Part shown: piece by piece, positions 20,926 to 64,000 of the stretch
Layout: every line of letters starts with the position of its first letter
How positions within the stretch are numbered: position 1 is the first letter of the stretch
NCBI GenBank assembly: GCA_027186245.1
Contig: CP114490.1
Location: forward strand, 5,843,001-5,907,000
From: Coriaria nepalensis
Taxonomy: Eukaryota > Streptophyta > Magnoliopsida > Cucurbitales > Coriariaceae
Length of the DNA: 64,000 bases
Reading direction: 5' to 3'
The notes under the pieces: generated by a model
What the model saw: only the letters and a program-made list of their open reading frames with translations
Databases searched by the model: none
What the model was told of the DNA's origin: nothing
Position numbers and translations under genes: made by a program

Positions 20926-21281
20926 CCAATGAATACTTTTTTCGCACTTCAAACACAAGTTTCGTGCATAACATTCTAATGATATTTCACGCAAACGTGT
21001 GCTTTTGTTTCACATGAAAATCATTTCAGTGGGTCTCCTCAACGCACTAAATCATATGAATAAGGTTCGAACGAATTATATTTTCACATTTCGAACACAA
21101 GTTTCGTGCATAACATACTAATGGTCTTCGAAGGACATGTGTGCCTGTTTGTCACCTTAGAGTCATTTGAATGTGTCTCTTCAAGACACTAAACCATTTG
21201 AATGATATTCAAATGAATTCTATTTTCACACATCAAACCCAAATTCTGTGCATAAACTTGCTAGTGATCATATAAGGAGAG

Positions 21282-31985: not shown

Positions 31986-32442
31986 AAAGCCATTAAATCA
32001 TTCGAATGAGATTCGAACGAATTCTAATTTCGCACTTCCAACACAAGTTTCGTGCATAAAATTCTAATGATATTTCAAGCAAACGTGTGCTTTTGTTTCA
32101 CATGAAACTCAATTCTGTGGGTGTCCTCAACCCACTAAATTATATGAATAAGGTTGGAACGAATTCTATTTTTGCATTTCAAATAGGAGTTTGGTGCATA
32201 ACATACTAATGGTCTTTGAAGGACATGTGTACCTGTTTTTCACCTTAGACTCATTTGAATGTGTTTCTTCAAGACACGAAACCATTTGAATGATGTTCAA
32301 ATGAATTCTATTTTCACACATCAAACCCAAATTCTGTGCATAAACTTGCTAGTGATCATATAAGGAAAGTTGTGTCTTTGTTTCACCTGAAAATCATTTC
32401 AATGAGTCTTTTAAAGCCATTAAATCATTCGAATGAGATTCG
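30619..32442 (+). repeat. Duplicated segment, left copy (offset 2562 bp)
   Basis: Matches 33181-35004, 6 trimers away, with the same marks: 'tcaaagacaagtttcatgc', A8 tract, 'ttaggctgatttg', 'gattccaatgaatac', 'caaatgtattc', 'cacttccaacac', 'gagtttggtgc', 'aaggaaagttg'. It overlaps the 9818-bp duplication, so the same trimers took part in more than one event. Confidence 0.86.
30997..31004 (+). other. A8 tract in a C monomer (marker of a sub-line)
   Basis: In this C monomer 'ctaaaccatttg' is replaced by a run of eight A before 'ttgaatg', so the left dyad arm is lost. The run recurs at 33559, 36121, 37402, 40815, 47068, 53747 and 60426. A likely precursor with fewer A residues lies near 2485. 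Confidence 0.88.
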
Positions 32443-35400: not shown

Positions 35401-35601
35401 TAAAGCCAGTAAATCATTCGAATGAGATTCGAATGAATTCTAATTTCGCATTTGAAACACAAGTTTCGTGCGTAACATTCTAATGATATTTCAAGCAAAC
35501 GTGTGCTTTTGTTTTACATAAAACTCAATTCTGTGGGTCTCCTCAACCCACTAAATAATATGAAAAAGGTTCGAACGAATTCTATTTTCGCATTTCAAAC
35601 A
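32412..35601 (+). repeat. 9-trimer unit (3843 bp spacing), first copy
   Basis: Matches 36255-39444 at +3843 bp over about 3190 bp. Borders are visible as single-base switches: 't' at 32411 against 'c' at 36254 on the left, 'c' at 35602 against 'g' at 39445 on the right. Inner marks such as 'ggaacgacatg', 'ttcactcatc' and 'atgaaaaaggttcg' are kept; 'gttttacataaaac' against 'gttttacatgaaac' is one of few differences. Confidence 0.87.
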
Positions 35602-36254
35602 CAAGTTTCGTGCATAACATACTAATGGTCTTGGAAGGACATGTGTACCTGTTTTTCACCTTAGACTCATTTGAATGTGTCTCTTCAAGACACTAAACCA
35701 TTTGAATGATGTTCAAATGAATTCTATTTTCACACATCAAAACCAAATTCTGTGCATAAACTTGCTAGTGATCATATAAGGACAGTTGTGTCTTTGTTTC
35801 ACCTGAAAATCATTTCAATGAGTCTTCTAAAGCCATTAAATCATTCGAATGAGATTCGGATGAATTCTATTTTCGCACTTCAAAGACAAGTTTCATGCAT
35901 AACATTCTAATGATATTTCAATCGAACATGTGCTTTTGTTTCACATGAAACTCAATTCTGTGGGCCTCCTCAACCCACTAAATAATATGAATAAGGTTCG
36001 AACGAATTCTATTTTCGCATTTCAAACAGAAGTTTCGTGCATAACATACTAATGGTCTTCGAAGGACATGTGTACCTGTTTTTTACCTTAGACTCATTTG
36101 AATGTGTCTGTTCAAGACACAAAAAAAACTGAATGATGTTCAAATGAATTCTATTTTCACACATCAAACCCAAATTCTGTGCATAAACTTGCTAGTGATC
36201 ATATAAGGACAGTTGTGTCTTTGTTTCACCTGAAAATCATTTCAATGAGTCTTC
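35602..36254 (+). repeat. Trimers joining the two 9-trimer copies
   Basis: About 1.5 trimers that complete the 3843-bp spacing. Includes a further A8-type C monomer (run at 36121-36128), here followed by 'ctgaatg' instead of 'ttgaatg' and preceded by 'ttagactcatttg' rather than 'ttaggctgatttg', so it belongs to a distinct sub-line that is the one present in the 6679-bp repeats. Confidence 0.78.
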
Positions 36255-39200: not shown

Positions 39201-39444
39201 GTTGTGTCTTTGTTTCATCTGAAAATCATTTCAATGAGTCTTCTAAAGCCAGTAAATCATTCGAATGAGATTCGAATGAATTCTAATTTCGCATTTGAAA
39301 CACAAGTTTCGTGCGTAACATTCTAATGATATTTCAAGCAAACGTGTGCTTTTGTTTTACATGAAACTCAATTCTGTGGGTCTCCTCAACCCACTAAATA
39401 ATATGAAAAAGGTTCGAACGAATTCTATTTTCGCATTTCAAACA
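36255..39444 (+). repeat. 9-trimer unit, second copy
   Basis: Second copy of 32412-35601. At about 39444 it stops inside a B monomer and the sequence continues as the copy of 29610 onward, with about 20 bp common to both at the join ('ttttcgcatttcaaacag'). Confidence 0.87.
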
Positions 39445-41803
39445 GAAGTTTCATGCATAACATACTAATGGTCTTTGAAAGACATGTGTGCCTGTTTTTC
39501 AGCTTACACTCATTTGAATGTGTCTCTTCAAGACACTAAACCATTTGAATGATATTCAAATGAATTCTTATTTCACACATCAAACACAAATTCCGTGCAT
39601 AACTTGCTAGTGATCACATAAGGACTTTTGTGTCTTTGTTTCACCTGAAAATCATTTCAATGAGTCTTCTCAAGCTACTAAATCATTTTAATGAGATTCA
39701 AATGAATACTATTTTCACACTTCAAACACAAGTTTCGTGCATAACATTCTAATGATATTTCAAGCAAACGTGTGCTTTTGTTTCACATGAAAATCATTTC
39801 AGTGGGCCCCTCAACCCACTAAATCATATGAATAAGGTTCGAACGAATTATATTTTCACATTTTGAACACCAGTTTCGTGCATAACATACTAATGGTCTT
39901 GGAAGGACATGTGTGCCTGTTTGTCACTTTAGAGTCATTTGAATGTGTCTCTTCAAGACACTAAACCATTTGAATGATATTCAAATTAATTCTATTTTCA
40001 CACATCAAACCCAAATTCTGTGCATAAACTTGTAGTGATCATATAAGGAGAGTTGTGTCTTTGTTTCACCTGAAAATCATTTCAATTAGTCTTCTCAAGC
40101 AACTAAGTCATTCGAATGAGATTCAAATGAATTCTAATTTCGCATTTCAAACACAAGTTTCGTGCGTAGCATTCTAATGATATTTCAAGCAAACGTGTGC
40201 TTTTGTTTCACATGAAACTCAATTCTGTGGGTCTCCTCAACCCACTAAATAATTTGAATAAGGTTCGGACGAATTCTATTTTCGCATTTCAAACAGAAGT
40301 TTCGTGCATAACATACTAATGGTCTTCGAAGGACATGTGTACCCATTTTTCACCTTAGAGTCATTTGAATGTGTCTTTTCAAGACACTAAACCATTTGAA
40401 TAATGTTCAAATGAATTCTATTTTCACACATCAAACCCAAATTCTGTGCATAAACTTGCTAGTGATCATATAAGGACAGTTGTGTCTTTGTTTCACCTGA
40501 AAATCATTTCAATGAGTCTTCTAAAGCCATTAAATCATTCGAATGAGATTCGGATGAATTCTATTTTCGCACTTCAAAGACAAGTTTCATGCATAACATT
40601 CTAATGATATTTCAATCGAACATGTGCTTTTGTTTCACATGAAACTCAATTCTGTGGGCCTCCTCAACCCACTAAATAATATGAATAAGGTTCGAACGAA
40701 TTCTATTTTCGCATTTCAAACAGAAGTTTCGTGCATAACATACTAATGGTCTTCGAAGGACATGTGTACCTGTTTTTTACCTTAGGCTGATTTGAATGTG
40801 TCTGTTCAAGACACAAAAAAAATTGAATGATGTTCAAATGAATTCTATTTTCACACATCAAACCCAAATTCTGTGCATAAACTTGCTAGTGATAATATAA
40901 GGACAGTTGTGTCTTTGTTTCACCTGAAAATCATTTCAATGAGTCTTCTCAAGCTACTAAATCATTCTAATGAGATTCCAATGAATACTATTTTCGCACT
41001 TCAAACACAAGTTTCGTGCATAACATTCTAATGATATTTCAAGCAAACGTGTGCTTTTGTTTCACATGAAAATCATTTCAGTGGGTCTCCTCAACCCACT
41101 AAATCATATGAATAAGGTTCGAACGAATTATATTTTCGCATTTCGAACACAAGTTTCGTGCATAACATACTAATGGTCTTGGAAGGACATGTGTGCCTGT
41201 TTGTCACCTTAGAGTCATTTGAATGTGTCTCTTCAAGACACTAAACCATTTGAATGATATTCAAATGAATTCTATTTTCACACATCAAACCCAAATTCTG
41301 TGCATAAACTTGCTAGTGATCATATAAGGACAGTTGTGTCTTTGTTTCACCTGAAAATCATTTCAATGAGTCTTCTCAAGCTACTAAATCATTCGAATGA
41401 GATTCGAATGAATTCTAATTTCGCATTTCAAACACAAGTTTCGTGCATAACATTCTAATGATATTTCAAGCAAACGTGTGCTTTTGTTTCACATGAAACT
41501 CAATTCTGTGGGTCTCCTCAACCCACTAAATAATATGAATAAGGTTCGAACGAATTATATTTTCGTATTTCGAACACAAGTTTCGTGCATAACATATTAA
41601 TGGTCTTGGAAGGACATGTGTACCTGTTTTTCACCTTAGAGTCATTCGAATGTGTCTCTTCAAGACACTAAACCATTTGAATGATATTCAAATGTATTCT
41701 ATTTTCACACATCAAACCCAAATTCTGTGCATAAACTTGCTAGTGATCATATAAGGACAGTTGTGTCTTTGTTTCACCTGAAAATCATTTCAATGAGTCT
41801 TCT
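39428..41803 (+). repeat. Duplicated segment, right copy (offset 9818 bp)
   Basis: Second copy of 29610-31985. Ends where 'gagtcttctcaagctac' here replaces 'gagtcttctaaagccat' of the left copy. Confidence 0.85.
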
Positions 41804-42850
41804 CAAGCTACTAAATCATTCGAATGAGATTCAAATGAATACTATTTTCGCACTTCAAACACAAGTTTCGTGCATAACATTCTAATGATATTTCAAGCAA
41901 ACGTGTGCATTTGTTTCACATGAAATCATTTCAGTGGGTCTCCTCAACCCACTAAATCATATGAATAAGGTTCGAACGAATTATATTTTCGCATTTCGAA
42001 CACCAGTTTCGTGCATAACATACTAATGGTCTTGGAAGGACATGTGTGCCTGTTTGTCACTTTAGAGTCATTTGAATGTGTCTCTTCAAGACACTAAATC
42101 ATTTGAATGATATTCAAATTAATTCTATTTTCACACATCAAACCCAAATTCTGTGCATAAACTTGTAGTGATCATATAAGGAGAGTTGTGTCTTTGTTTC
42201 ACCTGAAAATCATTTCAATGAGTCTTCTAAAGCCATTAAATCATTCGAATGAGATTCGAACGAATTCTAATTTCGCACTTCCAACACAAGTTTCGTGCAT
42301 AAAATTCTAATGATATTTCAAGCAAACGTGTGCTTTTGTTTCACATGAAACTCAATTCTGTGGGTGTCCTCAACCCACTAAATTATATGAATAAGGTTGG
42401 AACGAATTCTATTTTTGCATTTCAAATAGGAGTTTGGTGCATAACATACTAATGGTCTTTGAAGGACATGTGTACCTGTTTTTCACCTTAGACTCATTTG
42501 AATGTGTTTCTTCAAGACACGAAACCATTTGAATGATGTTCAAATGAATTCTATTTTCACACATCAAACCCAAATTCTGTGCATAAACTTGCTAGTGATC
42601 ATATAAGGAAAGTTGTGTCTTTGTTTCACCTGAAAATCATTTCAATGAGTCTTTTAAAGCCATTAAATCATTCGAATGAGATTCGAATGAATTCTAATTT
42701 CGCACTTCAAACACAAGTTTCGTGCATAAAATTCTAATGATATTTCAAGCAAACGTGTGCTTTTGTTTCACATGAAACTCAATTCTGTGGGTCTCCTCAA
42801 CCCACTAAATAATATGAATAATGTTCGAACGAATTATATTTTCGCATTTC
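41804..42850 (+). repeat. Junction zone before the 6679-bp repeats
   Basis: Composite of two sources. 41804-42184 resembles the trimer at about 39650-40040 (A-like B monomer with one base less, 'gaacaccag', 'cttgtagtgatc', 'ataaggagagttg'). From 42185 it follows 38347 onward at an offset of 3838 ('gattcgaacgaattc', 'cacttccaac', 'gagtttggtgc', 'aaggaaagttg', 'gaataatgttcg'). At 42851 it joins the repeating 6679-bp structure inside the B monomer. Confidence 0.8.
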
Positions 42851-44172
42851 GAACACCAGTTTCGTGCATAACATACTAATGGTCTTGGAAGGACATGTGT
42901 GCCTGTTTGTCACTTTAGAGTCATTTGAATGTGTCTCTTCAAGACACTAAACCATTTGAATGATATTCAAATGAATTCTATTTTCACACATCAAACCCAA
43001 ATTCTGTGCATAAACTTGCTAGTGATCATATAAGGACAGTTGTGTCTTTGTTTCATCTGAAAATCATTTCAATGAGTCTTCTAAAGCCAGTAAATCATTC
43101 GAATGAGATTCGACTGAATTCTAATTTCGCATTTGAAACACAAGTTTCGTGCATAACATTCTAATGATATTTCAAGCAAACGTGTGCTTTTGTTTCACAT
43201 GAAACTCAATTCTGTGGGCCTCCTCAACCCACTAAATAATATGAATAAGGTTCGAACGAATTCTATTTTCGCATTTCAAACACAAGTTTCGTGCATAACA
43301 TACTAATGGTCTTGGAAGGACATGTGTACCTGTTTTTCACCTTAGACTCATTTGAATGTGTCTCTTCAAGACACTTAACCATTTGAATGATGTTCAAATG
43401 AATTCTATTTTCACACATCAAAACCAAATTCTGTGCATAAACTTGCTAGTGATCATATAAGGACAGTTGTGTCTTTGTTTCACCTGAAAATCATTTCAAT
43501 GAGTCTTCTAAAGCCATTAAATCATTCGAATGAGATTCGGATGAATTCTAATTTCGCACTTTAAACACAAGTTTCGTGCATAACATTCTAATGATATTTC
43601 AAACAAACATGTGCTTTTGTTTCACATGAAACTCAATTCTGTGGGTCTCCTCAACCCACTAAATAATATGAATAAGGTTCGAACGAATTCTATTTTCGCA
43701 TTTCAAACAGAAGTTTCGTGCATAACATACTAATGGTCTTGGAAGGACATGTGTACCTGTTTTTCAGCTTACACTCATTTGAATGTGTCTCTTCAAGACA
43801 CTAAACCATTTGAATGATATTCAAATGAATTCTATTTTCACACATCAAACACAAATTCCGTGCATAACTTGCTAGTGATCACATAAGGACAGTTGTGTCT
43901 TTGTTTCACCTGAAAATCATTTCAATGAGTCTTCTAAAGCCATTAAATCATTCGAATGAGATTCGGATGAATTCTATTTTCGCACTTCAAACACAAGTTT
44001 CGTGCATAACATTCTAGTGATATTTCAATCGAACATGTGCTTTTGTTTCACATGAAACTCAATTATGTGGGTCTCCTCAACACTAAATCATATGAATAAG
44101 GTTCGAACGAATTCTCTTTTCGCATTTCAAACAGAAGTTTCATGCATAACATACTAATGGTCTTTGAAAGAC

Positions 44173-44313
44173 ATGTGTACCTGTTTTTCACCTTAGAGTC
44201 ATTCGAATGTGTCTCTTCAAGACACTAAACCATTTGAATGATATTCAAATGAATTCTATTTTCACACATCAAACCCAAGTTTCGTGCATAACATTCTAAT
44301 GATATTTCAAGCA
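44173..44313 (+). repeat. C/A fusion monomer (copy 1)
   Basis: Starts as C ('atgtgtacctg', 'cacacatcaaaccc') and ends as A ('aagtttcgtgcataacattc', 'ttcaagca'), 141 bp long, and is followed directly by B. The switch is inside 'caaaccc/aag', where C and A share 'caaac'. One monomer's worth of sequence was removed, breaking the A-B-C order to C/A-B-C. Confidence 0.92.
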
Positions 44314-45265
44314 AACGTGTGCATTTGTTTCACATGAAACTCAATTCTGTGGGCCTCCTCAACCCACTAAATAATATGAATAAGGTTCGAACGAATTCTA
44401 TTTTCGCATTTCAAACAGAAGTTTCGTGCATAACATACTAATGGTCTTGGAAGGACATGTGTACCTGTTTTTTACCTTAGGCTGATTTGAATGTGTCTCT
44501 TCAAGACACTAAATCATTTGAATGATATTCAAATTAATTCTATTTTCACACATCAAACCCAAATTCTGTGCATAAACTTGTAGTGATCATATAAGGAGAG
44601 TTGTGTCTTTGTTTCACCTGAAAATCATTTCAATGAGTCTTCTAAAGCCATTAAATCATTCGAATGAGATTCGAACGAATTCTAATTTCGCACTTCCAAC
44701 ACAAGTTTCGTGCATAAAATTCTAATGATATTTCAAGCAAACGTGTGCTTTTGTTTCACATGAAACTCAATTCTGTGGGTGTCCTCAACCCACTAAATTA
44801 TATGAATAAGGTTGGAACGAATTCTATTTTTGCATTTCGAATAGGAGTTTGGTGCATAACATACTAATGGTCTTTGAAGGACATGTGTACCTGTTTTTCA
44901 CCTTAGACTCATTTGAATGTGTTTCTTCAAGACACGAAACCATTTGAATGATGTTCAAATGAATTCTATTTTCACACATCAAACCCAAATTCTGTGCATA
45001 AACTTGCTAGTGATCATATAAGGAAAGTTGTGTCTTTGTTTCACCTGAAAATTATTTCAATGAGTCTTTTAAAGCCATTAAATCATTCGAATGAGATTCG
45101 AATGAATTCTAATTTCGCACTTCAAACACAAGTTTCGTGCATAAAATTCTAATGATATTTCAAGCAAACGTGTGCTTTTGTTTCACATGAAACTCAATTC
45201 TGTGGGTCTCCTCAACCCACTAAATAATATGAATAATGTTCGAACGAATTATATTTTCGCATTTC

Positions 45266-46690
45266 GAACACCAGTTTCGTGCATAACATACTAATGGTCT
45301 TGGAAGGACATGTGTGCCTGTTTGTCACTTTAGAGTCATTTGAATGTGTCTCTTCAAGACACTAAACCATTTGAATGATATTCAAATTAATTCTATTTTC
45401 ACTCATCAAACCCAAATTCTGTGCATAAACTTGCTAGTGATCATATAAGGACAGTTGTGTCTTTGTTTCATCTGAAAATCATTTCAATGAGTCTTCTAAA
45501 GCCAGTAAATCATTCGAATGAGATTCGACTGAATTCTAATTTCGCATTTGAAACACAAGTTTCGTGCATAACATTCTAATGATATTTCAAGCAAACGTGT
45601 GCTTTTGTTTCACATGAAACTCAATTCTGTGGGCCTCCTCAACCCACTAAATAATATGAATAAGGTTCGAACGAATTCTATTTTCGCATTTCAAACACAA
45701 GTTTCGTGCATAACGTACTAATGGTCTTGGAAGGACATGTGTACCTGTTTTTCACCTTAGACTCATTTGAATGTGTCTCTTCAAGACACTTAACCATTTG
45801 AATGATGTTCAAATGAATTCTATTTTCACACATCAAAACCAAATTCTGTGCATAAACTTGCTAGTGATCATATAAGGACAGTTGTGTCTTTGTTTCACCT
45901 GAAAATCATTTCAATGAGTCTTCTAAAGCCATTAAATCATTCGAATGAGATTCGGATGAATTCTAATTTCGCACTTTAAACACAAGTTTCGTGCATAACA
46001 TTCTAATGATATTTCAAACAAACATGTGCTTTTGTTTCACATGAAACTCAATTCTGTGGGTCTCCTCAACCCACTAAATAATATGAATAAGGTTCGAACG
46101 AATTCTATTTTCGCATTTCAAACAGAAGTTTCGTGCATAACATACTAATGGTCTTGGAAGGACATGTGTACCTGTTTTTCAGCTTACACTCATTTGAATG
46201 TGTCTCTTCAAGACACTAAACCATTTGAATGATATTCAAATGAATTCTATTTTCACACATCAAACACAAATTCCGTGCATAACTTGCTAGTGATCACATA
46301 AGGACAGTTGTGTCTTTGTTTCACCTGAAAATCATTTCAATGAGTCTTCTAAAGCCATTAAATCATTCGAATGAGATTCGGATGAATTCTATTTTCGCAC
46401 TTCAAACACAAGTTTCGTGCATAACATTCTAGTGATATTTCAATCGAACATGTGCTTTTGTTTCACATGAAACTCAATTATGTGGGTCTCCTCAACACTA
46501 AATCATATGAATAAGGTTCGAACGAATTCTCTTTTCGCATTTCAAACAGAAGTTTCATGCATAACATACTAATGGTCTTTGAAAGACATGTGTACCTGTT
46601 TTTCACCTTAGAGTCATTCGAATGTGTCTCTTCAAGACACTAAACCATTTGAATGATATTCAAATGAATTCTATTTTCACACATCAAACC
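45266..46690 (+). repeat. Internal duplicate within the 6679-bp repeat (offset 2415 bp)
   Basis: Matches 42851-44275 at +2415 bp, which is 17 monomers. The similarity also reaches back to about 42096/44511, before the first 6679-bp copy. Both carry 'gattcgactg', 'cacttaacc', 'caaacaaacatg' and the 3-bp loss 'cctcaacactaaatc' (44076/46491). The left partner then enters the C/A fusion while this one continues as normal C. It recurs in the later copies at +6679. Confidence 0.85.
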
Positions 46691-49529
46691 CAAATTCTGT
46701 GCATAAACTTGCTAGTGATCATATAAGGACAGTTGTGTCTTTGTTTCATCTGAAAATCATTTCAATGAGTCTTCTAAAGCCATTAAATCATTCGAATGAG
46801 ATTCGGATGAATTCTATTTTCGCACTTCAAAGACAAGTTTCATGCATAACATTCTAATGATATTTCAATCGAACATGTGCTTTTGTTTCACATGAAACTC
46901 AATTCTGTGGGCCTCCTCAACCCACTAAATAATATGAATAAGGTTCGAACGAATTCTATTTTCGCATTTCAAACAGAAGTTTCGTGCATAACATACTAAT
47001 GGTCTTCGAAGGACATGTGTACCTGTTTTTTACCTTAGACTCATTTGAATGTGTCTGTTCAAGACACAAAAAAAATTGAATGATGTTCAAATGAATTCTA
47101 TTTTCACACATCAAACCCAAATTCTGTGCATAAACTTGCTAGTGATCATATAAGGACAGTTGTGTCTTTGTTTCACCTGAAAATCATTTCAATGAGTCTT
47201 CTAAAGCCATTAAATCATTCGAATGAGATTCGGATGAATACTATTTTCGCACTTCAAACACAAGTTTCGTGCATAACATTCTAATGATATTTCAAGCAAA
47301 CGTGTGCTTTTGTTTCACATGAAAATCATTTCAGTGGGTCTCCTCAACCCACTAAATCATATGAATAAGGTTCGAACGAATTATATTTTCGCATTTCGAA
47401 CACAAGTTTCGTGCATAACATACTAATGGTCTTGGAAGGACATGTGTGCCTGTTTGTCACCTTAGAGTCATTTGAATGTGTCTCTTCAAGACACTAAACC
47501 ATTTGAATGATATTCAAATGAATTCTATTTTCACACATCAAACACAAATTCCGTGCATAACTTGCTAGTGATCACATAAGGACAGTTGTGTCTTTGTTTC
47601 ACCTGAAAATCATTTCAATGAGTCTTCTAAAGCCATTAAATCATTCGAATGAGATTCGGATGAATTCTATTTTCGCACTTCAAACACAAGTTTCGTGCAT
47701 AACATTCTAGTGATATTTCAATCGAACATGTGCTTTTGTTTCACATGAAACTCAATTATGTGGGTCTCCTCAACCCACTAAATCATATGAATAAGGTTCG
47801 AACGAATTTTCTTTTCGCATTTCAAACAGAAGTTTCATGCATAACATACTAATGGTCTTTGAAAGACATGTGTACCTGTTTTTCACCTTAGAGTCATTCG
47901 AATGTGTCTCTTCAAGACACTAAACCATTTGAATGATATTCAAATGAATTCTATTTTCACACATCAAACCCAAATTCTGTGCATAAACTTGCTAGTGATC
48001 ATATAAGGACAGTTGTGTCTTTGTTTCACCTGAAAATCATTTCAATGAGTCTTCTAAAGCCGTTAAATCATTCGAATGAGATTCGAATGAATTCTATTTT
48101 CGCACTTCAAACACAAGTTTCGTGCATAACATTCTAATGATATTTCAAGCAAACGTGTGCTTTTGTTTCACATGAAACTCAATTCTGTGGGTCTCCTCAA
48201 CCCACTAAATAATATGAATAAGGTTCGAACGAATTATATTTTCGTATTTCGAACACAAGTTTCGTGCATAACATATTAATGGTCTTGGAAGGACATGTGT
48301 ACCTGTTTTTCACCTTAGAGTCATTCGAATGTGTCTCTTCAAGACACTAAACCATTTGAATGATATTCAAATGAATTCTATTTTCACACATCAAACCCAA
48401 ATTCTGTGCATAAACTTGCTAGTGATCATATAAGGACAGTTGTGTCTTTGTTTCACCTGAAAATCATTTCAATGAGTCTTCTCAAGCTACTAAATCATTC
48501 GAATGAGATTCGAATGAATTCTTATTTCGCATTTCAAACACAAGTTTCGTGCATAACATTCTAATGATATTTCAAGCAAACGTGTGCTTTTGTTTCACAT
48601 GAAACTCAATTCTGTGGGCCTCCTCAACCCACTAAATAATATGAATAAGGTTCGAACGAATTCTATTTTCGCATTTCAAACACAAGTTTCGTGCATAACA
48701 TACTAATGGTCTTGGAAGGACATGTGTACCTGTTTTTCACCTTAGACTCATTTGAATGTGTCTCTTCAAGACACTAAACCATTTGAATGATGTTCAAATG
48801 AATTCTATTTTCACACATCAAAACCAAATTCTGTGCATAAACTTGCTAGTGATCATATAAGGACAGTTGTGTCTTTGTTTCACCTGAAAATCATTTCAAT
48901 GAGTCTTCTAAAGCCATTAAATCATTCGAATGAGATTCGGATGAATTCTATTTTCGCACTTCAAACACAAGTTTCGGGCATAACATTCTAGTGATATTTC
49001 AATCGAACATGTGCTTTTGTTTCACATGAAACTCAATTATGTGGGTCTCCTCAACCCACTAAATCATATGAATAAAGTTCGAACGAATTCTCTTTTCGCA
49101 TTTCAAACAGAAGTTTCATGCATAACATACTAATGGTCTTTGAAAGACATGTGTGCCTGTTTTTCAGCTTACACTCATTTGAATGTGTCTCTTCAAGACA
49201 CTAAACCATTTGAATGATATTCAAATGAATTCTTATTTCACACATCAAACACAAATTCCGTGCATAACTTGCTAGTGATCACATAAGGACTTTTGTGTCT
49301 TTGTTTCACCTGAAAATCATTTCAATGAGTCTTCTCAAGCTACTAAATCATTTTAATGAGATTCAAATGAATACTATTTTCACACTTCAAACACAAGTTT
49401 CGTGCATAACATTCTAATGATATTTCAAGCAAACGTGTGCTTTTGTTTCACATGAAAATCATTTCAGTGGGCTCCTCAACCCACTAAATCATATGAATAA
49501 GGTTCGAACGAATTATATTTTCGCATTTT

Positions 49530-52500
49530 GAACACCAGTTTCGTGCATAACATACTAATGGTCTTGGAAGGACATGTGTGCCTGTTTGTCACTTTAGAGT
49601 CATTTGAATGTGTCTCTTCAAGACACTAAACCATTTGAATGATATTCAAATGAATTCTATTTTCACACATCAAACCCAAATTCTGTGCATAAACTTGCTA
49701 GTGATCATATAAGGACAGTTGTGTCTTTGTTTCATCTGAAAATCATTTCAATGAGTCTTCTAAAGCCAGTAAATCATTCGAATGAGATTCGACTGAATTC
49801 TAATTTCGCATTTGAAACACAAGTTTCGTGCATAACATTCTAATGATATTTCAAGCAAACGTGTGCTTTTGTTTCACATGAAACTCAATTCTGTGGGCCT
49901 CCTCAACCCACTAAATAATATGAATAAGGTTCGAACGAATTCTATTTTCGCATTTCAAACACAAGTTTCGTGCATAACATACTAATGGTCTTGGAAGGAC
50001 ATGTGTACCTGTTTTTCACCTTAGACTCATTTGAATGTGTCTCTTCAAGACACTTAACCATTTGAATGATGTTCAAATGAATTCTATTTTCACACATCAA
50101 AACCAAATTCTGTGCATAAACTTGCTAGTGATCATATAAGGACAGTTGTGTCTTTGTTTCACCTGAAAATCATTTCAATGAGTCTTCTAAAGCCATTAAA
50201 TCATTCGAATGAGATTCGGATGAATTCTAATTTCGCACTTTAAACACAAGTTTCGTGCATAACATTCTAATGATATTTCAAACAAACATGTGCTTTTGTT
50301 TCACATGAAACTCAATTCTGTGGGTCTCCTCAACCCACTAAATAATATGAATAAGGTTCGAACGAATTCTATTTTCGCATTTCAAACAGAAGTTTCGTGC
50401 ATAACATACTAATGGTCTTGGAAGGACATGTGTACCTGTTTTTCAGCTTACACTCATTTGAATGTGTCTCTTCAAGACACTAAACCATTTGAATGATATT
50501 CAAATGAATTCTATTTTCACACATCAAACACAAATTCCGTGCATAACTTGCTAGTGATCACATAAGGACAGTTGTGTCTTTGTTTCACCTGAAAATCATT
50601 TCAATGAGTCTTCTAAAGCCATTAAATCATTCGAACGAGATTCGGATGAATTCTATTTTCGCACTTCAAACACAAGTTTCGTGCATAACATTCTAGTGAT
50701 ATTTCAATCGAACATGTGCTTTTGTTTCACATGAAACTCAATTATGTGGGTCTCCTCAACACTAAATCATATGAATAAGGTTCGAACGAATTCTCTTTTC
50801 GCATTTCAAACAGAAGTTTCATGCATAACATACTAATGGTCTTTGAAAGACATGTGTACCTGTTTTTCACCTTAGAGTCATTCGAATGTGTCTCTTCAAG
50901 ACACTAAACCATTTGAATGATATTCAAATGAATTCTATTTTCACACATCAAACCCAAGTTTCGTGCATAACATTCTAATGATATTTCAAGCAAACGTGTG
51001 CATTTGTTTCACATGAAACTCAATTCTGTGGGCCTCCTCAACCCACTAAATAATATGAATAAGGTTCGAACGAATTCTATTTTCGCATTTCAAACAGAAG
51101 TTTCGTGCATAACATACTAATGGTCTTGGAAGGACATGTGTACCTGTTTTTTACCTTAGGCTGATTTGAATGTGTCTCTTCAAGACACTAAATCATTTGA
51201 ATGATATTCAAATTAATTCTATTTTCACACATCAAACCCAAATTCTGTGCATAAACTTGTAGTGATCATATAAGGAGAGTTGTGTCTTTGTTTCACCTGA
51301 AAATCATTTCAATGAGTCTTCTAAAGCCATTAAATCATTCGAATGAGATTCGAACGAATTCTAATTTCGCACTTCCAACACAAGTTTCGTGCATAAAATT
51401 CTAATGATATTTCAAGCAAACGTGTGCTTTTGTTTCACATGAAACTCAATTCTGTGGGTGTCCTCAACCCACTAAATTATATGAATAAGGTTGGAACGAA
51501 TTCTATTTTTGCATTTCGAATAGGAGTTTGGTGCATAACATACTAATGGTCTTTGAAGGACATGTGTACCTGTTTTTCACCTTAGACTCATTTGAATGTG
51601 TTTCTTCAAGACACGAAACCATTTGAATGATGTTCAAATGAATTCTATTTTCACACATCAAACCCAAATTCTGTGCATAAACTTGCTAGTGATCATATAA
51701 GGAAAGTTGTGTCTTTGTTTCACCTGAAAATCATTTCAATGAGTCTTTTAAAGCCATTAAATCATTCGAATGAGATTCGAATGAATTCTAATTTCGCACT
51801 TCAAACACAAGTTTCGTGCATAAAATTCTAATGATATTTCAAGCAAACGTGTGCTTTTGTTTCACATGAAACTCAATTCTGTGGGTCTCCTCAACCCACT
51901 AAATAATATGAATAATGTTCGAACGAATTATATTTTCGCATTTCGAACACCAGTTTCGTGCATAACATACTAATGGTCTTGGAAGGACATGTGTGCCTGT
52001 TTGTCACTTTAGAGTCATTTGAATGTGTCTCTTCAAGACACTAAACCATTTGAATGATATTCAAATTAATTCTATTTTCACTCATCAAACCCAAATTCTG
52101 TGCATAAACTTGCTAGTGATCATATAAGGACAGTTGTGTCTTTGTTTCATCTGAAAATCATTTCAATGAGTCTTCTAAAGCCAGTAAATCATTCGAATGA
52201 GATTCGACTGAATTCTAATTTCGCATTTGAAACACAAGTTTCGTGCATAACATTCTAATGATATTTCAAGCAAACGTGTGCTTTTGTTTCACATGAAACT
52301 CAATTCTGTGGGCCTCCTCAACCCACTAAATAATATGAATAAGGTTCGAACGAATTCTATTTTCGCATTTCAAACACAAGTTTCGTGCATAACGTACTAA
52401 TGGTCTTGGAAGGACATGTGTACCTGTTTTTCACCTTAGACTCATTTGAATGTGTCTCTTCAAGACACTTAACCATTTGAATGATGTTCAAATGAATTCT

Positions 52501-55500
52501 ATTTTCACACATCAAAACCAAATTCTGTGCATAAACTTGCTAGTGATCATATAAGGACAGTTGTGTCTTTGTTTCACCTGAAAATCATTTCAATGAGTCT
52601 TCTAAAGCCATTAAATCATTCGAATGAGATTCGGATGAATTCTAATTTCGCACTTTAAACACAAGTTTCGTGCATAACATTCTAATGATATTTCAAACAA
52701 ACATGTGCTTTTGTTTCACATGAAACTCAATTCTGTGGGTCTCCTCAACCCACTAAATAATATGAATAAGGTTCGAACGAATTCTATTTTCGCATTTCAA
52801 ACAGAAGTTTCGTGCATAACATACTAATGGTCTTGGAAGGACATGTGTACCTGTTTTTCAGCTTACACTCATTTGAATGTGTCTCTTCAAGACACTAAAC
52901 CATTTGAATGATATTCAAATGAATTCTATTTTCACACATCAAACACAAATTCCGTGCATAACTTGCTAGTGATCACATAAGGACAGTTGTGTCTTTGTTT
53001 CACCTGAAAATCATTTCAATGAGTCTTCTAAAGCCATTAAATCATTCGAATGAGATTCGGATGAATTCTATTTTCGCACTTCAAACACAAGTTTCGTGCA
53101 TAACATTCTAGTGATATTTCAATCGAACATGTGCTTTTGTTTCACATGAAACTCAATTATGTGGGTCTCCTCAACACTAAATCATATGAATAAGGTTCGA
53201 ACGAATTCTCTTTTCGCATTTCAAACAGAAGTTTCATGCATAACATACTAATGGTCTTTGAAAGACATGTGTACCTGTTTTTCACCTTAGAGTCATTCGA
53301 ATGTGTCTCTTCAAGACACTAAACCATTTGAATGATATTCAAATGAATTCTATTTTCACACATCAAACCCAAATTCTGTGCATAAACTTGCTAGTGATCA
53401 TATAAGGACAGTTGTGTCTTTGTTTCATCTGAAAATCATTTCAATGAGTCTTCTAAAGCCATTAAATCATTCGAATGAGATTCGGATGAATTCTATTTTC
53501 GCACTTCAAAGACAAGTTTCATGCATAACATTCTAATGATATTTCAATCGAACATGTGCTTTTGTTTCACATGAAACTCAATTCTGTGGGCCTCCTCAAC
53601 CCACTAAATAATATGAATAAGGTTCGAACGAATTCTATTTTCGCATTTCAAACAGAAGTTTCGTGCATAACATACTAATGGTCTTCGAAGGACATGTGTA
53701 CCTGTTTTTTACCTTAGACTCATTTGAATGTGTCTGTTCAAGACACAAAAAAAATTGAATGATGTTCAAATGAATTCTATTTTCACACATCAAACCCAAA
53801 TTCTGTGCATAAACTTGCTAGTGATCATATAAGGACAGTTGTGTCTTTGTTTCACCTGAAAATCATTTCAATGAGTCTTCTAAAGCCATTAAATCATTCG
53901 AATGAGATTCGGATGAATACTATTTTCGCACTTCAAACACAAGTTTCGTGCATAACATTCTAATGATATTTCAAGCAAACGTGTGCTTTTGTTTCACATG
54001 AAAATCATTTCAGTGGGTCTCCTCAACCCACTAAATCATATGAATAAGGTTCGAACGAATTATATTTTCGCATTTCGAACACAAGTTTCGTGCATAACAT
54101 ACTAATGGTCTTGGAAGGACATGTGTGCCTGTTTGTCACCTTAGAGTCATTTGAATGTGTCTCTTCAAGACACTAAACCATTTGAATGATATTCAAATGA
54201 ATTCTATTTTCACACATCAAACACAAATTCCGTGCATAACTTGCTAGTGATCACATAAGGACAGTTGTGTCTTTGTTTCACCTGAAAATCATTTCAATGA
54301 GTCTTCTAAAGCCATTAAATCATTCGAATGAGATTCGGATGAATTCTATTTTCGCACTTCAAACACAAGTTTCGTGCATAACATTCTAGTGATATTTCAA
54401 TCGAACATGTGCTTTTGTTTCACATGAAACTCAATTATGTGGGTCTCCTCAACCCACTAAATCATATGAATAAGGTTCGAACGAATTTTCTTTTCGCATT
54501 TCAAACAGAAGTTTCATGCATAACATACTAATGGTCTTTGAAAGACATGTGTACCTGTTTTTCACCTTAGAGTCATTCGAATGTGTCTCTTCAAGACACT
54601 AAACCATTTGAATGATATTCAAATGAATTCTATTTTCACACATCAAACCCAAATTCTGTGCATAAACTTGCTAGTGATCATATAAGGACAGTTGTGTCTT
54701 TGTTTCACCTGAAAATCATTTCAATGAGTCTTCTAAAGCCGTTAAATCATTCGAATGAGATTCGAATGAATTCTATTTTCGCACTTCAAACACAAGTTTC
54801 GTGCATAACATTCTAATGATATTTCAAGCAAACGTGTGCTTTTGTTTCACATGAAACTCAATTCTGTGGGTCTCCTCAACCCACTAAATAATATGAATAA
54901 GGTTCGAACGAATTATATTTTCGTATTTCGAACACAAGTTTCGTGCATAACATATTAATGGTCTTGGAAGGACATGTGTACCTGTTTTTCACCTTAGAGT
55001 CATTCGAATGTGTCTCTTCAAGACACTAAACCATTTGAATGATATTCAAATGAATTCTATTTTCACACATCAAACCCAAATTCTGTGCATAAACTTGCTA
55101 GTGATCATATAAGGACAGTTGTGTCTTTGTTTCACCTGAAAATCATTTCAATGAGTCTTCTCAAGCTACTAAATCATTCGAATGAGATTCGAATGAATTC
55201 TTATTTCGCATTTCAAACACAAGTTTCGTGCATAACATTCTAATGATATTTCAAGCAAACGTGTGCTTTTGTTTCACATGAAACTCAATTCTGTGGGCCT
55301 CCTCAACCCACTAAATAATATGAATAAGGTTCGAACGAATTCTATTTTCGCATTTCAAACACAAGTTTCGTGCATAACATACTAATGGTCTTGGAAGGAC
55401 ATGTGTACCTGTTTTTCACCTTAGACTCATTTGAATGTGTCTCTTCAAGACACTAAACCATTTGAATGATGTTCAAATGAATTCTATTTTCACACATCAA

Positions 55501-56208
55501 AACCAAATTCTGTGCATAAACTTGCTAGTGATCATATAAGGACAGTTGTGTCTTTGTTTCACCTGAAAATCATTTCAATGAGTCTTCTAAAGCCATTAAA
55601 TCATTCGAATGAGATTCGGATGAATTCTATTTTCGCACTTCAAACACAAGTTTCGGGCATAACATTCTAGTGATATTTCAATCGAACATGTGCTTTTGTT
55701 TCACATGAAACTCAATTATGTGGGTCTCCTCAACCCACTAAATCATATGAATAAAGTTCGAACGAATTCTCTTTTCGCATTTCAAACAGAAGTTTCATGC
55801 ATAACATACTAATGGTCTTTGAAAGACATGTGTGCCTGTTTTTCAGCTTACACTCATTTGAATGTGTCTCTTCAAGACACTAAACCATTTGAATGATATT
55901 CAAATGAATTCTTATTTCACACATCAAACACAAATTCCGTGCATAACTTGCTAGTGATCACATAAGGACTTTTGTGTCTTTGTTTCACCTGAAAATCATT
56001 TCAATGAGTCTTCTCAAGCTACTAAATCATTTTAATGAGATTCAAATGAATACTATTTTCACACTTCAAACACAAGTTTCGTGCATAACATTCTAATGAT
56101 ATTTCAAGCAAACGTGTGCTTTTGTTTCACATGAAAATCATTTCAGTGGGCTCCTCAACCCACTAAATCATATGAATAAGGTTCGAACGAATTATATTTT
56201 CGCATTTT
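49530..56208 (+). repeat. 6679-bp higher-order repeat, copy 2
   Basis: Second full copy. All landmark positions shift by exactly 6679: fusion monomer 50852, A8 tract 53747, 'gggctcctc' near 56149, 'aaggacttttg' 55964. A private change is 'cattcgaacgagattcgg' near 50634, where the others have 'cgaatgag'. Confidence 0.94.
50852..50992 (+). repeat. C/A fusion monomer (copy 2)
   Basis: Identical fusion, 6679 bp after the first, with the switch just after 50950. Followed by B with 'gtgtgcatttg'. Confidence 0.92.
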
Positions 56209-59200
56209 GAACACCAGTTTCGTGCATAACATACTAATGGTCTTGGAAGGACATGTGTGCCTGTTTGTCACTTTAGAGTCATTTGAATGTGTCTCTTCAA
56301 GACACTAAACCATTTGAATGATATTCAAATGAATTCTATTTTCACACATCAAACCCAAATTCTGTGCATAAACTTGCTAGTGATCATATAAGGACAGTTG
56401 TGTCTTTGTTTCATCTGAAAATCATTTCAATGAGTCTTCTAAAGCCAGTAAATCATTCGAATGAGATTCGACTGAATTCTAATTTCGCATTTGAAACACA
56501 AGTTTCGTGCATAACATTCTAATGATATTTCAAGCAAACGTGTGCTTTTGTTTCACATGAAACTCAATTCTGTGGGCCTCCTCAACCCACTAAATAATAT
56601 GAATAAGGTTCGAACGAATTCTATTTTCGCATTTCAAACACAAGTTTCGTGCATAACATACTAATGGTCTTGGAAGGACATGTGTACCTGTTTTTCACCT
56701 TAGACTCATTTGAATGTGTCTCTTCAAGACACTTAACCATTTGAATGATGTTCAAATGAATTCTATTTTCACACATCAAAACCAAATTCTGTGCATAAAC
56801 TTGCTAGTGATCATATAAGGACAGTTGTGTCTTTGTTTCACCTGAAAATCATTTCAATGAGTCTTCTAAAGCCATTAAATCATTCGAATGAGATTCGGAT
56901 GAATTCTAATTTCGCACTTTAAACACAAGTTTCGTGCATAACATTCTAATGATATTTCAAACAAACATGTGCTTTTGTTTCACATGAAACTCAATTCTGT
57001 GGGTCTCCTCAACCCACTAAATAATATGAATAAGGTTCGAACGAATTCTATTTTCGCATTTCAAACAGAAGTTTCGTGCATAACATACTAATGGTCTTGG
57101 AAGGACATGTGTACCTGTTTTTCAGCTTACACTCATTTGAATGTGTCTCTTCAAGACACTAAACCATTTGAATGATATTCAAATGAATTCTATTTTCACA
57201 CATCAAACACAAATTCCGTGCATAACTTGCTAGTGATCACATAAGGACAGTTGTGTCTTTGTTTCACCTGAAAATCATTTCAATGAGTCTTCTAAAGCCA
57301 TTAAATCATTCGAATGAGATTCGGATGAATTCTATTTTCGCACTTCAAACACAAGTTTCGTGCATAACATTCTAGTGATATTTCAATCGAACATGTGCTT
57401 TTGTTTCACATGAAACTCAATTATGTGGGTCTCCTCAACACTAAATCATATGAATAAGGTTCGAACGAATTCTCTTTTCGCATTTCAAACAGAAGTTTCA
57501 TGCATAACATACTAATGGTCTTTGAAAGACATGTGTACCTGTTTTTCACCTTAGAGTCATTCGAATGTGTCTCTTCAAGACACTAAACCATTTGAATGAT
57601 ATTCAAATGAATTCTATTTTCACACATCAAACCCAAGTTTCGTGCATAACATTCTAATGATATTTCAAGCAAACGTGTGCATTTGTTTCACATGAAACTC
57701 AATTCTGTGGGCCTCCTCAACCCACTAAATAATATGAATAAGGTTCGAACGAATTCTATTTTCGCATTTCAAACAGAAGTTTCGTGCATAACATACTAAT
57801 GGTCTTGGAAGGACATGTGTACCTGTTTTTTACCTTAGGCTGATTTGAATGTGTCTCTTCAAGACACTAAATCATTTGAATGATATTCAAATTAATTCTA
57901 TTTTCACACATCAAACCCAAATTCTGTGCATAAACTTGTAGTGATCATATAAGGAGAGTTGTGTCTTTGTTTCACCTGAAAATCATTTCAATGAGTCTTC
58001 TAAAGCCATTAAATCATTCGAATGAGATTCGAACGAATTCTAATTTCGCACTTCCAACACAAGTTTCGTGCATAAAATTCTAATGATATTTCAAGCAAAC
58101 GTGTGCTTTTGTTTCACATGAAACTCAATTCTGTGGGTGTCCTCAACCCACTAAATTATATGAATAAGGTTGGAACGAATTCTATTTTTGCATTTCGAAT
58201 AGGAGTTTGGTGCATAACATACTAATGGTCTTTGAAGGACATGTGTACCTGTTTTTCACCTTAGACTCATTTGAATGTGTTTCTTCAAGACACGAAACCA
58301 TTTGAATGATGTTCAAATGAATTCTATTTTCACACATCAAACCCAAATTCTGTGCATAAACTTGCTAGTGATCATATAAGGAAAGTTGTGTCTTTGTTTC
58401 ACCTGAAAATCATTTCAATGAGTCTTTTAAAGCCATTAAATCATTCGAATGAGATTCGAATGAATTCTAATTTCGCACTTCAAACACAAGTTTCGTGCAT
58501 AAAATTCTAATGATATTTCAAGCAAACGTGTGCTTTTGTTTCACATGAAACTCAATTCTGTGGGTCTCCTCAACCCACTAAATAATATGAATAATGTTCG
58601 AACGAATTATATTTTCGCATTTCGAACACCAGTTTCGTGCATAACATACTAATGGTCTTGGAAGGACATGTGTGCCTGTTTGTCACTTTAGAGTCATTTG
58701 AATGTGTCTCTTCAAGACACTAAACCATTTGAATGATATTCAAATTAATTCTATTTTCACTCATCAAACCCAAATTCTGTGCATAAACTTGCTAGTGATC
58801 ATATAAGGACAGTTGTGTCTTTGTTTCATCTGAAAATCATTTCAATGAGTCTTCTAAAGCCAGTAAATCATTCGAATGAGATTCGACTGAATTCTAATTT
58901 CGCATTTGAAACACAAGTTTCGTGCATAACATTCTAATGATATTTCAAGCAAACGTGTGCTTTTGTTTCACATGAAACTCAATTCTGTGGGCCTCCTCAA
59001 CCCACTAAATAATATGAATAAGGTTCGAACGAATTCTATTTTCGCATTTCAAACACAAGTTTCGTGCATAACGTACTAATGGTCTTGGAAGGACATGTGT
59101 ACCTGTTTTTCACCTTAGACTCATTTGAATGTGTCTCTTCAAGACACTTAACCATTTGAATGATGTTCAAATGAATTCTATTTTCACACATCAAAACCAA

Positions 59201-62200
59201 ATTCTGTGCATAAACTTGCTAGTGATCATATAAGGACAGTTGTGTCTTTGTTTCACCTGAAAATCATTTCAATGAGTCTTCTAAAGCCATTAAATCATTC
59301 GAATGAGATTCGGATGAATTCTAATTTCGCACTTTAAACACAAGTTTCGTGCATAACATTCTAATGATATTTCAAACAAACATGTGCTTTTGTTTCACAT
59401 GAAACTCAATTCTGTGGGTCTCCTCAACCCACTAAATAATATGAATAAGGTTCGAACGAATTCTATTTTCGCATTTCAAACAGAAGTTTCGTGCATAACA
59501 TACTAATGGTCTTGGAAGGACATGTGTACCTGTTTTTCAGCTTACACTCATTTGAATGTGTCTCTTCAAGACACTAAACCATTTGAATGATATTCAAATG
59601 AATTCTATTTTCACACATCAAACACAAATTCCGTGCATAACTTGCTAGTGATCACATAAGGACAGTTGTGTCTTTGTTTCACCTGAAAATCATTTCAATG
59701 AGTCTTCTAAAGCCATTAAATCATTCGAATGAGATTCGGATGAATTCTATTTTCGCACTTCAAACACAAGTTTCGTGCATAACATTCTAGTGATATTTCA
59801 ATCGAACATGTGCTTTTGTTTCACATGAAACTCAATTATGTGGGTCTCCTCAACACTAAATCATATGAATAAGGTTCGAACGAATTCTCTTTTCGCATTT
59901 CAAACAGAAGTTTCATGCATAACATACTAATGGTCTTTGAAAGACATGTGTACCTGTTTTTCACCTTAGAGTCATTCGAATGTGTCTCTTCAAGACACTA
60001 AACCATTTGAATGATATTCAAATGAATTCTATTTTCACACATCAAACCCAAATTCTGTGCATAAACTTGCTAGTGATCATATAAGGACAGTTGTGTCTTT
60101 GTTTCATCTGAAAATCATTTCAATGAGTCTTCTAAAGCCATTAAATCATTCGAATGAGATTCGGATGAATTCTATTTTCGCACTTCAAAGACAAGTTTCA
60201 TGCATAACATTCTAATGATATTTCAATCGAACATGTGCTTTTGTTTCACATGAAACTCAATTCTGTGGGCCTCCTCAACCCACTAAATAATATGAATAAG
60301 GTTCGAACGAATTCTATTTTCGCATTTCAAACAGAAGTTTCGTGCATAACATACTAATGGTCTTCGAAGGACATGTGTACCTGTTTTTTACCTTAGACTC
60401 ATTTGAATGTGTCTGTTCAAGACACAAAAAAAATTGAATGATGTTCAAATGAATTCTATTTTCACACATCAAACCCAAATTCTGTGCATAAACTTGCTAG
60501 TGATCATATAAGGACAGTTGTGTCTTTGTTTCACCTGAAAATCATTTCAATGAGTCTTCTAAAGCCATTAAATCATTCGAATGAGATTCGGATGAATACT
60601 ATTTTCGCACTTCAAACACAAGTTTCGTGCATAACATTCTAATGATATTTCAAGCAAACGTGTGCTTTTGTTTCACATGAAAATCATTTCAGTGGGTCTC
60701 CTCAACCCACTAAATCATATGAATAAGGTTCGAACGAATTATATTTTCGCATTTCGAACACAAGTTTCGTGCATAACATACTAATGGTCTTGGAAGGACA
60801 TGTGTGCCTGTTTGTCACCTTAGAGTCATTTGAATGTGTCTCTTCAAGACACTAAACCATTTGAATGATATTCAAATGAATTCTATTTTCACACATCAAA
60901 CACAAATTCCGTGCATAACTTGCTAGTGATCACATAAGGACAGTTGTGTCTTTGTTTCACCTGAAAATCATTTCAATGAGTCTTCTAAAGCCATTAAATC
61001 ATTCGAATGAGATTCGGATGAATTCTATTTTCGCACTTCAAACACAAGTTTCGTGCATAACATTCTAGTGATATTTCAATCGAACATGTGCTTTTGTTTC
61101 ACATGAAACTCAATTATGTGGGTCTCCTCAACCCACTAAATCATATGAATAAGGTTCGAACGAATTTTCTTTTCGCATTTCAAACAGAAGTTTCATGCAT
61201 AACATACTAATGGTCTTTGAAAGACATGTGTACCTGTTTTTCACCTTAGAGTCATTCGAATGTGTCTCTTCAAGACACTAAACCATTTGAATGATATTCA
61301 AATGAATTCTATTTTCACACATCAAACCCAAATTCTGTGCATAAACTTGCTAGTGATCATATAAGGACAGTTGTGTCTTTGTTTCACCTGAAAATCATTT
61401 CAATGAGTCTTCTAAAGCCGTTAAATCATTCGAATGAGATTCGAATGAATTCTATTTTCGCACTTCAAACACAAGTTTCGTGCATAACATTCTAATGATA
61501 TTTCAAGCAAACGTGTGCTTTTGTTTCACATGAAACTCAATTCTGTGGGTCTCCTCAACCCACTAAATAATATGAATAAGGTTCGAACGAATTATATTTT
61601 CGTATTTCGAACACAAGTTTCGTGCATAACATATTAATGGTCTTGGAAGGACATGTGTACCTGTTTTTCACCTTAGAGTCATTCGAATGTGTCTCTTCAA
61701 GACACTAAACCATTTGAATGATATTCAAATGAATTCTATTTTCACACATCAAACCCAAATTCTGTGCATAAACTTGCTAGTGATCATATAAGGACAGTTG
61801 TGTCTTTGTTTCACCTGAAAATCATTTCAATGAGTCTTCTCAAGCTACTAAATCATTCGAATGAGATTCGAATGAATTCTTATTTCGCATTTCAAACACA
61901 AGTTTCGTGCATAACATTCTAATGATATTTCAAGCAAACGTGTGCTTTTGTTTCACATGAAACTCAATTCTGTGGGCCTCCTCAACCCACTAAATAATAT
62001 GAATAAGGTTCGAACGAATTCTATTTTCGCATTTCAAACACAAGTTTCGTGCATAACATACTAATGGTCTTGGAAGGACATGTGTACCTGTTTTTCACCT
62101 TAGACTCATTTGAATGTGTCTCTTCAAGACACTAAACCATTTGAATGATGTTCAAATGAATTCTATTTTCACACATCAAAACCAAATTCTGTGCATAAAC

Positions 62201-62887
62201 TTGCTAGTGATCATATAAGGACAGTTGTGTCTTTGTTTCACCTGAAAATCATTTCAATGAGTCTTCTAAAGCCATTAAATCATTCGAATGAGATTCGGAT
62301 GAATTCTATTTTCGCACTTCAAACACAAGTTTCGGGCATAACATTCTAGTGATATTTCAATCGAACATGTGCTTTTGTTTCACATGAAACTCAATTATGT
62401 GGGTCTCCTCAACCCACTAAATCATATGAATAAAGTTCGAACGAATTCTCTTTTCGCATTTCAAACAGAAGTTTCATGCATAACATACTAATGGTCTTTG
62501 AAAGACATGTGTGCCTGTTTTTCAGCTTACACTCATTTGAATGTGTCTCTTCAAGACACTAAACCATTTGAATGATATTCAAATGAATTCTTATTTCACA
62601 CATCAAACACAAATTCCGTGCATAACTTGCTAGTGATCACATAAGGACTTTTGTGTCTTTGTTTCACCTGAAAATCATTTCAATGAGTCTTCTCAAGCTA
62701 CTAAATCATTTTAATGAGATTCAAATGAATACTATTTTCACACTTCAAACACAAGTTTCGTGCATAACATTCTAATGATATTTCAAGCAAACGTGTGCTT
62801 TTGTTTCACATGAAAATCATTTCAGTGGGCTCCTCAACCCACTAAATCATATGAATAAGGTTCGAACGAATTATATTTTCGCATTTT
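56209..62887 (+). repeat. 6679-bp higher-order repeat, copy 3
   Basis: Third full copy, with the fusion monomer at 57531 and the A8 tract at 60426. I saw no length change relative to copies 1 and 2. Confidence 0.94.
57531..57671 (+). repeat. C/A fusion monomer (copy 3)
   Basis: Identical fusion, 6679 bp after the second, with the switch just after 57629. Confidence 0.92.
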
Positions 62888-64000
62888 GAACACCAGTTTC
62901 GTGCATAACATACTAATGGTCTTGGAAGGACATGTGTGCCTGTTTGTCACTTTAGAGTCATTTGAATGTGTCTCTTCAAGACACTAAACCATTTGAATGA
63001 TATTCAAATGAATTCTATTTTCACACATCAAACCCAAATTCTGTGCATAAACTTGCTAGTGATCATATAAGGACAGTTGTGTCTTTGTTTCATCTGAAAA
63101 TCATTTCAATGAGTCTTCTAAAGCCAGTAAATCATTCGAATGAGATTCGACTGAATTCTAATTTCGCATTTGAAACACAAGTTTCGTGCATAACATTCTA
63201 ATGATATTTCAAGCAAACGTGTGCTTTTGTTTCACATGAAACTCAATTCTGTGGGCCTCCTCAACCCACTAAATAATATGAATAAGGTTCGCACGAATTC
63301 TATTTTCGCATTTCAAACACAAGTTTCGTGCATAACATACTAATGGTCTTGGAAGGACATGTGTACCTGTTTTTCACCTTAGACTCATTTGAATGTGTCT
63401 CTTCAAGACACTTAACCATTTGAATGATGTTCAAATGAATTCTATTTTCACACATCAAAACCAAATTCTGTGCATAAACTTGCTAGTGATCATATAAGGA
63501 CAGTTGTGTCTTTGTTTCACCTGAAAATCATTTCAATGAGTCTTCTAAAGCCATTAAATCATTCGAATGAGATTCGGATGAATTCTAATTTCGCACTTTA
63601 AACACAAGTTTCGTGCATAACATTCTAATGATATTTCAAACAAACATGTGCTTTTGTTTCACATGAAACTCAATTCTGTGGGTCTCCTCAACCCACTAAA
63701 TAATATGAATAAGGTTCGAACGAATTCTATTTTCGCATTTCAAACAGAAGTTTCGTGCATAACATACTAATGGTCTTGGAAGGACATGTGTACCTGTTTT
63801 TCAGCTTACACTCATTTGAATGTGTCTCTTCAAGACACTAAACCATTTGAATGATATTCAAATGAATTCTATTTTCACACATCAAACACAAATTCCGTGC
63901 ATAACTTGCTAGTGATCACATAAGGACAGTTGTGTCTTTGTTTCACCTGAAAATCATTTCAATGAGTCTTCTAAAGCCATTAAATCATTCGAATGAGATT
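62888..64000 (+). repeat. 6679-bp higher-order repeat, copy 4 (cut by window end)
   Basis: First 1113 bp of a further copy. A private change is 'ggttcgcacgaattc' near 63289, where other copies have 'ggttcgaacg'. The array evidently continues past the window. Confidence 0.92.

Follow-up and report, generated by a model that had tools for sequence, protein, structure and literature searches.

A probable young local amplification of a 6,679-bp block in a centromere-type satellite array of Coriaria nepalensis

A stretch of 64,000 nucleotides of the Coriaria nepalensis assembly, hereafter the window, ends in a block of 6,679 bp that recurs with hardly any change. The question raised by this locus is how a block of 47 satellite monomers, which does not fit the three-monomer frame of the array around it, came to be repeated. 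The window was placed at C10:5,843,001-5,907,000 in an assembly of 316 Mb in 20 contigs; positions given below are window coordinates on the + strand unless stated otherwise, and they run on into the flanks. The reading that we favour, and consider likely, is a young local amplification in a centromere-type array, in which an out-of-register duplication of 2,415 bp was followed by an in-register duplication of 6,679 bp.

The whole window (1..64000) is one tandem array, with TRF periods of 142 and 427 bp. Cutting it gave 449 monomers, which clustered into three types (A, B and C) arranged in the order C-B-A, and divergence was 26-30% between types and 6-6.5% within a type. This order is strict, exceptions in the window being confined to the 6,679-bp tract; the trimer measures 427 bp, and the window trimers diverge by 6.2% on average (all pairs, recent copies included). 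Satellite was found throughout the window and its flanks (364 kb) with no uncovered gap of at least 40 bp, barring one stretch reading N, and it sits about 52% of the way along the 11.3-Mb contig. From its size, this near-middle position and its type, we infer that the array is centromeric; poplar and willow also have higher-order repeats (HORs) in arrays that are not centromeric (PMC12046899). In exact scans of the assembly, which give minimum counts for repeats and cover the sequence outside stretches of N, all 88 matches of a B-specific 25-mer lay on C10 at 5.73-6.00 Mb, 86 of them inside the window and the flanking sequence examined. Judged by these exact matches, the trimer form looks specific to this one chromosome. 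No Rfam match reached gathering scores, one 7-kb query had no match in the plasmid collection, and one exact 26-mer had none in viral contigs. Nine ORFs reach 60 aa (eight with 67 aa, one with 87 aa); they are taken as chance.

Compared at a lag of 6,679, positions 42,851-57,321 showed 4 mismatches among 14,471, and at lags of 6,678 and 6,680 the identity was only ~28%. The copies therefore contain no indels relative to one another, as the preliminary description had claimed, and chance is not in question as a source of this exact periodicity. The tract occupies 42851..64000 within the window and continues beyond it. An alignment into the right flank, which that description had proposed, was run and placed the tract end near 69,734; the three full copies and partial fourth reported earlier are correct for the window, and the right flank completes the fourth, giving a tract of 4.03 copies (~26.9 kb) that is not open-ended. 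Copy 1 lies at 42851..49529, copy 2 at 49530..56208 and copy 3 at 56209..62887, and the first 1,113 bp of copy 4 lie at 62888..64000. At the same lag, the 58 bp to the left of the tract (42,793-42,850) show 3 differences.

The mismatches in the window reduce to three private substitutions, a T at 45,053 in copy 1, a C at 50,636 in copy 2 and a C at 63,292 in copy 4, and copy 3 is without a private base. All three had been noticed before and are real, although the positions first given (45051, 50634 and 63289) were 2-3 bases off. A fourth difference, at 68,751 in the flanking part of copy 4, gives no unique 31-mer within 304 kb, and this variant may have been copied from another monomer by conversion rather than produced by mutation. 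Copy pairs differ by 2, 1, 3, 1, 3 and 2 bases per 6,679 (12 differences over six pairs, mean 0.03%), and no variant is common to two copies against the other two, all four differences being private. With 1-3 differences per copy pair against 6.2% among the window trimers, the early impression of a very recent amplification holds. Each of the four copies contains the 47 monomers of ~142 bp originally counted (16 C, 16 B and 15 A), so that 6,679 bp corresponds to 15 trimers and one C-B pair; the unit is indeed not a multiple of the trimer, the length of which had been put at 426 rather than 427 bp. The block behaves as an HOR, with copies 0.03% apart against 26-30% between monomer types and 6-6.5% within a type, and with monomers identical in number and order in every copy.

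The monomer number of the unit is not divisible by three because one A monomer is lost at a hybrid near 44,278, and this one absent A per copy is the sole cause of register loss in the window. At 44143..44283, a B monomer with A-type last bases is followed directly by C, and the same arrangement is repeated at 50,822 and 57,501 and, in the flank, at 64,180. Two types are thus fused with the monomer length kept, as in a hybrid-monomer structural variant (140 bp matched, a gap of 1 and a next monomer of 142 bp), and the kept monomer phase indicates that homology guided the joining. A 39-mer across the junction had 4 exact matches in the 316-Mb assembly, all on C10 with a spacing of 6,679 bp and in agreement with the window and flank sequence; the same exact scan gave no match on the reverse strand and none for a reversed control pattern. 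Judged by exact matches in the readable sequence, the unit is confined to one place. Within 267 kb of + array, the left-hand 400 bp at the junction are identical to 46,294-46,693, and for the right-hand 400 bp the only matches are the other junctions, as might be expected at a recombination joint.

An older duplication probably made this junction. Positions 42,070-44,278 differ from 44,485-46,693 at 5 of 2,209 sites (0.23%, outside a 144-bp patch), and this match, together with a rare variant, points to a tandem duplication of 2,415 bp (17 monomers) with putative halves at 41864..44278 and 44279..46693 and the hybrid as their joint. The variant, carried by C monomers, occurs at 7 of the 473 sites that can be compared across 364 kb; four of these are the junctions, and the others are at 41,905, 75,388 and 125,363. 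Position 41,905 is where the source should lie if 2,415 bp were duplicated in tandem and joined at 44,278, and a 64-bp stretch around the variant is identical at the junction and at 41,905, although an equally good source of the right side of the junction at 75,346 counts against this origin. The patch (44341..44484) does not follow the duplication model, differing from 41,926-42,069 at 15 of 144 positions and from 30,828, 33,390, 37,233 and 40,646 by one difference, and it is probably the product of conversion or of a template switch. Such a patch would not be predicted by one clean duplication and may be held against the simple model; it also leaves room for the alternative that the fusion is a simple deletion following an in-register 18-mer duplication. 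We do not prefer a simple deletion, since the segment to the right of the junction has the rare variant seen at the predicted start of the 2,415-bp duplication.

According to the preferred model of a 2,415-bp duplication, a strand would have paired one monomer out of the trimer register and 17 monomers would have been duplicated. The 3' ends of a B monomer and of an A monomer would have been joined at corresponding positions within the monomer, with the loss of one A and the formation of the hybrid, and the 144-bp patch would have been added by conversion after or along with this duplication. In a later step, an in-register exchange between stretches identical for 122 bp would have brought the 6,679-bp block to four copies. 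The likely exchange interval is 42851..42972, the 122 bp at the unit start that are identical to the DNA right of copy 4 (69,567 on), and, if one mismatch is allowed, the in-register match reaches 168 bp. What follows copy 4 on the right differs from 29,293-31,449 at 5 of 2,157 positions; since the right flank thus carries the older haplotype seen there, it can be regarded as the ancestral continuation, and the inner joints between copies as new. Unequal sister exchange and break-induced replication, both of which figure in models of satellite HOR growth (PMC8997354), could each have served as the route, and the sequence cannot decide between them. Stepwise doubling and one multi-copy event would likewise be indistinguishable from four unshared private differences.

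Divergence in the array falls on three levels, 6.2% for the trimers, 0.23% for the 2,415-bp duplication and 0.03% for the 6,679-bp copies. At a plant mutation rate of 7e-9 per site and generation, the copies would date back ~21,000 generations (95% 5,800-55,000, with all four private differences counted) and the 2,415-bp duplication ~160,000 generations (52,000-377,000), both ages being orders of magnitude that conversion would turn into underestimates. Gene conversion is also central to a different account, in which an old 47-mer array was homogenised and the low divergence dates the last homogenisation, not the amplification. The patch beside the junction and the non-unique variant at 68,751 do look conversion-like; however, incomplete conversion would leave variants that some copies share, and no such variant is seen among the four. 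The tract edges are also sharp, and by exact scan the junction occurs nowhere else in the assembly. We therefore consider an old, homogenised array unlikely.

A second concern is the assembly itself, in which a shorter or longer tandem might have been expanded or collapsed, so that the number of four copies would be wrong. Within 42.5-70.2 kb, 31-mers unique within 304 kb are present at only three places (around 45,053, 50,636 and 63,292), and short or noisy reads would be unable to settle the copy number. These unique 31-mers leave inner gaps of up to 12,596 bp, and the outer gaps pass both scanned ends, so that the flanks are tied in through differences that are not unique. Reads of 13-20 kb could nevertheless cross the longest inner gap, copies 1, 2 and 4 have private bases at differing unit positions, and similar tracts of 2-3 copies are found along the array, among which the 6,679-bp tract is not out of character. 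An artefact of this kind is in our judgement quite unlikely, and we retain the reading of a young amplification in the genome.

How ordinary such growth is in this array can be seen from a scan of 267 kb of + trimer array for units of 0.8-9 kb with at most 0.8% mismatch in a sliding window. It gave 21 tandem tracts after merging of nested ones, some overlapping, and 67% of the 267 kb lies inside at least one tract. Among them, the 6,679-bp tract ranks first in both length and copy number, and close behind come units of 5,537 bp (3.07 copies) and 5,206 bp (3.24 copies); shorter units with more copies, 1,281 bp (5.1 copies) and 854 bp (4.1 copies), are hidden by the merging. Tracts of this kind are common here, and the 6,679-bp one is at the upper end of their size range. 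That the 47-mer was selected as a better centromere, through drive or CENH3 affinity, would fit the rank of its tract as the longest listed but is highly improbable, because neutral turnover would be enough in a 267-kb trimer array of which two thirds lies in tandem tracts and because the unit is made of the same three monomer types only. Nothing was found to suggest that the 6,679-bp block has a separate role; it illustrates array turnover.

A second young amplification, with a 5,537-bp unit in ~3 copies, lies at 77,319-94,332, and its core shows 1 difference in 11,037. At 101,225-118,117, the 5,206-bp unit is present in ~3.2 copies; here C follows directly after C, with the B-A pair absent, at three places one unit apart, and this is the sole other whole-monomer register break in the 267 kb. 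A 1,281-bp unit (three trimers) is repeated ~5.1 times between -37,538 and -30,971 with 0 differences in 5,287. Inside the window, 11,886-20,004 holds nested near-identical blocks with lags of 2,112, 2,966 and 5,078, marked by 131/132-bp monomers and without a single difference over up to 3,041 bp. Three sites that had looked like register breaks (-3.7 kb, 73.3 kb and 76.3 kb) were dropped, two being partial intra-monomer deletions and the third a small inner duplication. Within the 267 kb of + array, both independent whole-monomer register breaks (those of the 6,679-bp and 5,206-bp units) lie inside blocks of more than three copies. It could be imagined that blocks are predisposed to multiplication once an out-of-register exchange near a conserved box has broken the trimer frame and produced a hybrid or misjoined monomer; we think this very unlikely and treat it as a lead, not a result, since two events are few and 67% of the 267 kb lies in tandem tracts anyway.

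The box in question, (C)AAGTTTCGTGCATAACA, is 17-18 bases long and is found at 44,277-44,293 and at most boundaries preceding C or B monomers, and the hybrid junction is located at it. Within 304 kb, the 17-mer has 497 exact copies on the + strand and 0 on the other. A further observation concerns DNA farther right on C10, at C10:6,027,001-6,107,000 and in an adjoining stretch, where the same satellite family lies in the opposite orientation as a strict dimer of types D (C-like, 83%) and E (A-like, 84%), which alternate in 593 of 593 neighbouring monomers, one truncated monomer being left out. One array on C10 thus contains HORs of two forms, the trimer and, in inverted orientation, the dimer, separated by a stretch reading N. 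For Tribolium madens, macro-dyad satellite arrays have been reported (PMC13081366).

The value of the locus lies in the order of events, which is unusually readable, since three layers are seen together, the old trimer frame, the out-of-register duplication of intermediate age and the very recent fourfold copying. The block is a clear, datable case of ordinary array growth and not a new type of element, and it leaves the known picture of centromeric array evolution unchanged. Its single-locus junction could serve as a chromosome marker and for tracking changes in copy number across individuals or generations.

In titles and abstract openings of the literature on 142-bp centromeric satellites with HORs, no description of this array was recognised. 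The beetle satellites that have or may have a 142-bp unit, PRAT of Palorus (PMC2220036) and possibly one of Tenebrio molitor (PMC13192020), are likened to it by unit length only. In the available text on Amaranthus tricolor, Atriplex, rhubarb, Salicaceae and four Amaranthus species, the unit lengths are other ones or a 142-bp unit does not appear. The box (C)AAGTTTCGTGCATAACA is common to the array and the 169-bp centromeric repeat of Amaranthus hypochondriacus, AmC4 (PMC5577786, PMC11678860), and either shared ancestry or a conserved protein-binding site could account for it. The best local alignment with this repeat covers 23 bases with a score of 19, reached by 1 of 500 shuffles, although the match came from a search of many papers and chance is therefore larger than the shuffles suggest. 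The amaranth monomer is 169 bp long as against 142 bp, with no similarity past the ~23 aligned bases, and membership in that family was rejected since the monomer is not alignable along its whole length.

The centromeric satellite of Arabidopsis contains multi-monomer HOR blocks and local duplications of widely varying size. As described for CentBd/CentBs of Brachypodium (PMC10910784), tandem monomers there likewise form duplicated multi-monomer blocks with widely varying sizes. Relative to what is described for these two systems, the present array differs in its strict trimer frame throughout and in one 47-mer block present four times with almost no divergence. In soybean CentGm-4, the HOR type (monomer, dimer, trimer or tetramer) varies by chromosome and two structures can share one chromosome (PMC11447526). 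C10 is similar in carrying both trimers and dimers, with a trimer form that looks chromosome-specific; the soybean units of ~413/417 bp, against 427 bp here, are likened by description, and a young 47-mer over-structure is not part of that description as available (PMC11447526).

The likeness to human alpha satellite extends to the confinement to one chromosome, the junction 39-mer (4 of 4) and the B-specific 25-mer (88 of 88) having all their exact matches, which are lower bounds, on C10. Very many copies are expected of a homogeneous HOR array of the human alpha type, and here there are 4.03. Whole-monomer losses, length-keeping hybrid monomers and chromosome-specific HORs are shared with the published descriptions of alpha satellite, in which homogeneous HORs of ~4-40 monomers form large arrays, as against 47 monomers in four copies here (PMC9549924, PMC8997354). 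Exact matches put all four copies at a single locus of the assembly, and the 6,679-bp block is, as far as such matches can tell, a local tandem amplification and not a large homogeneous array of the human alpha type.
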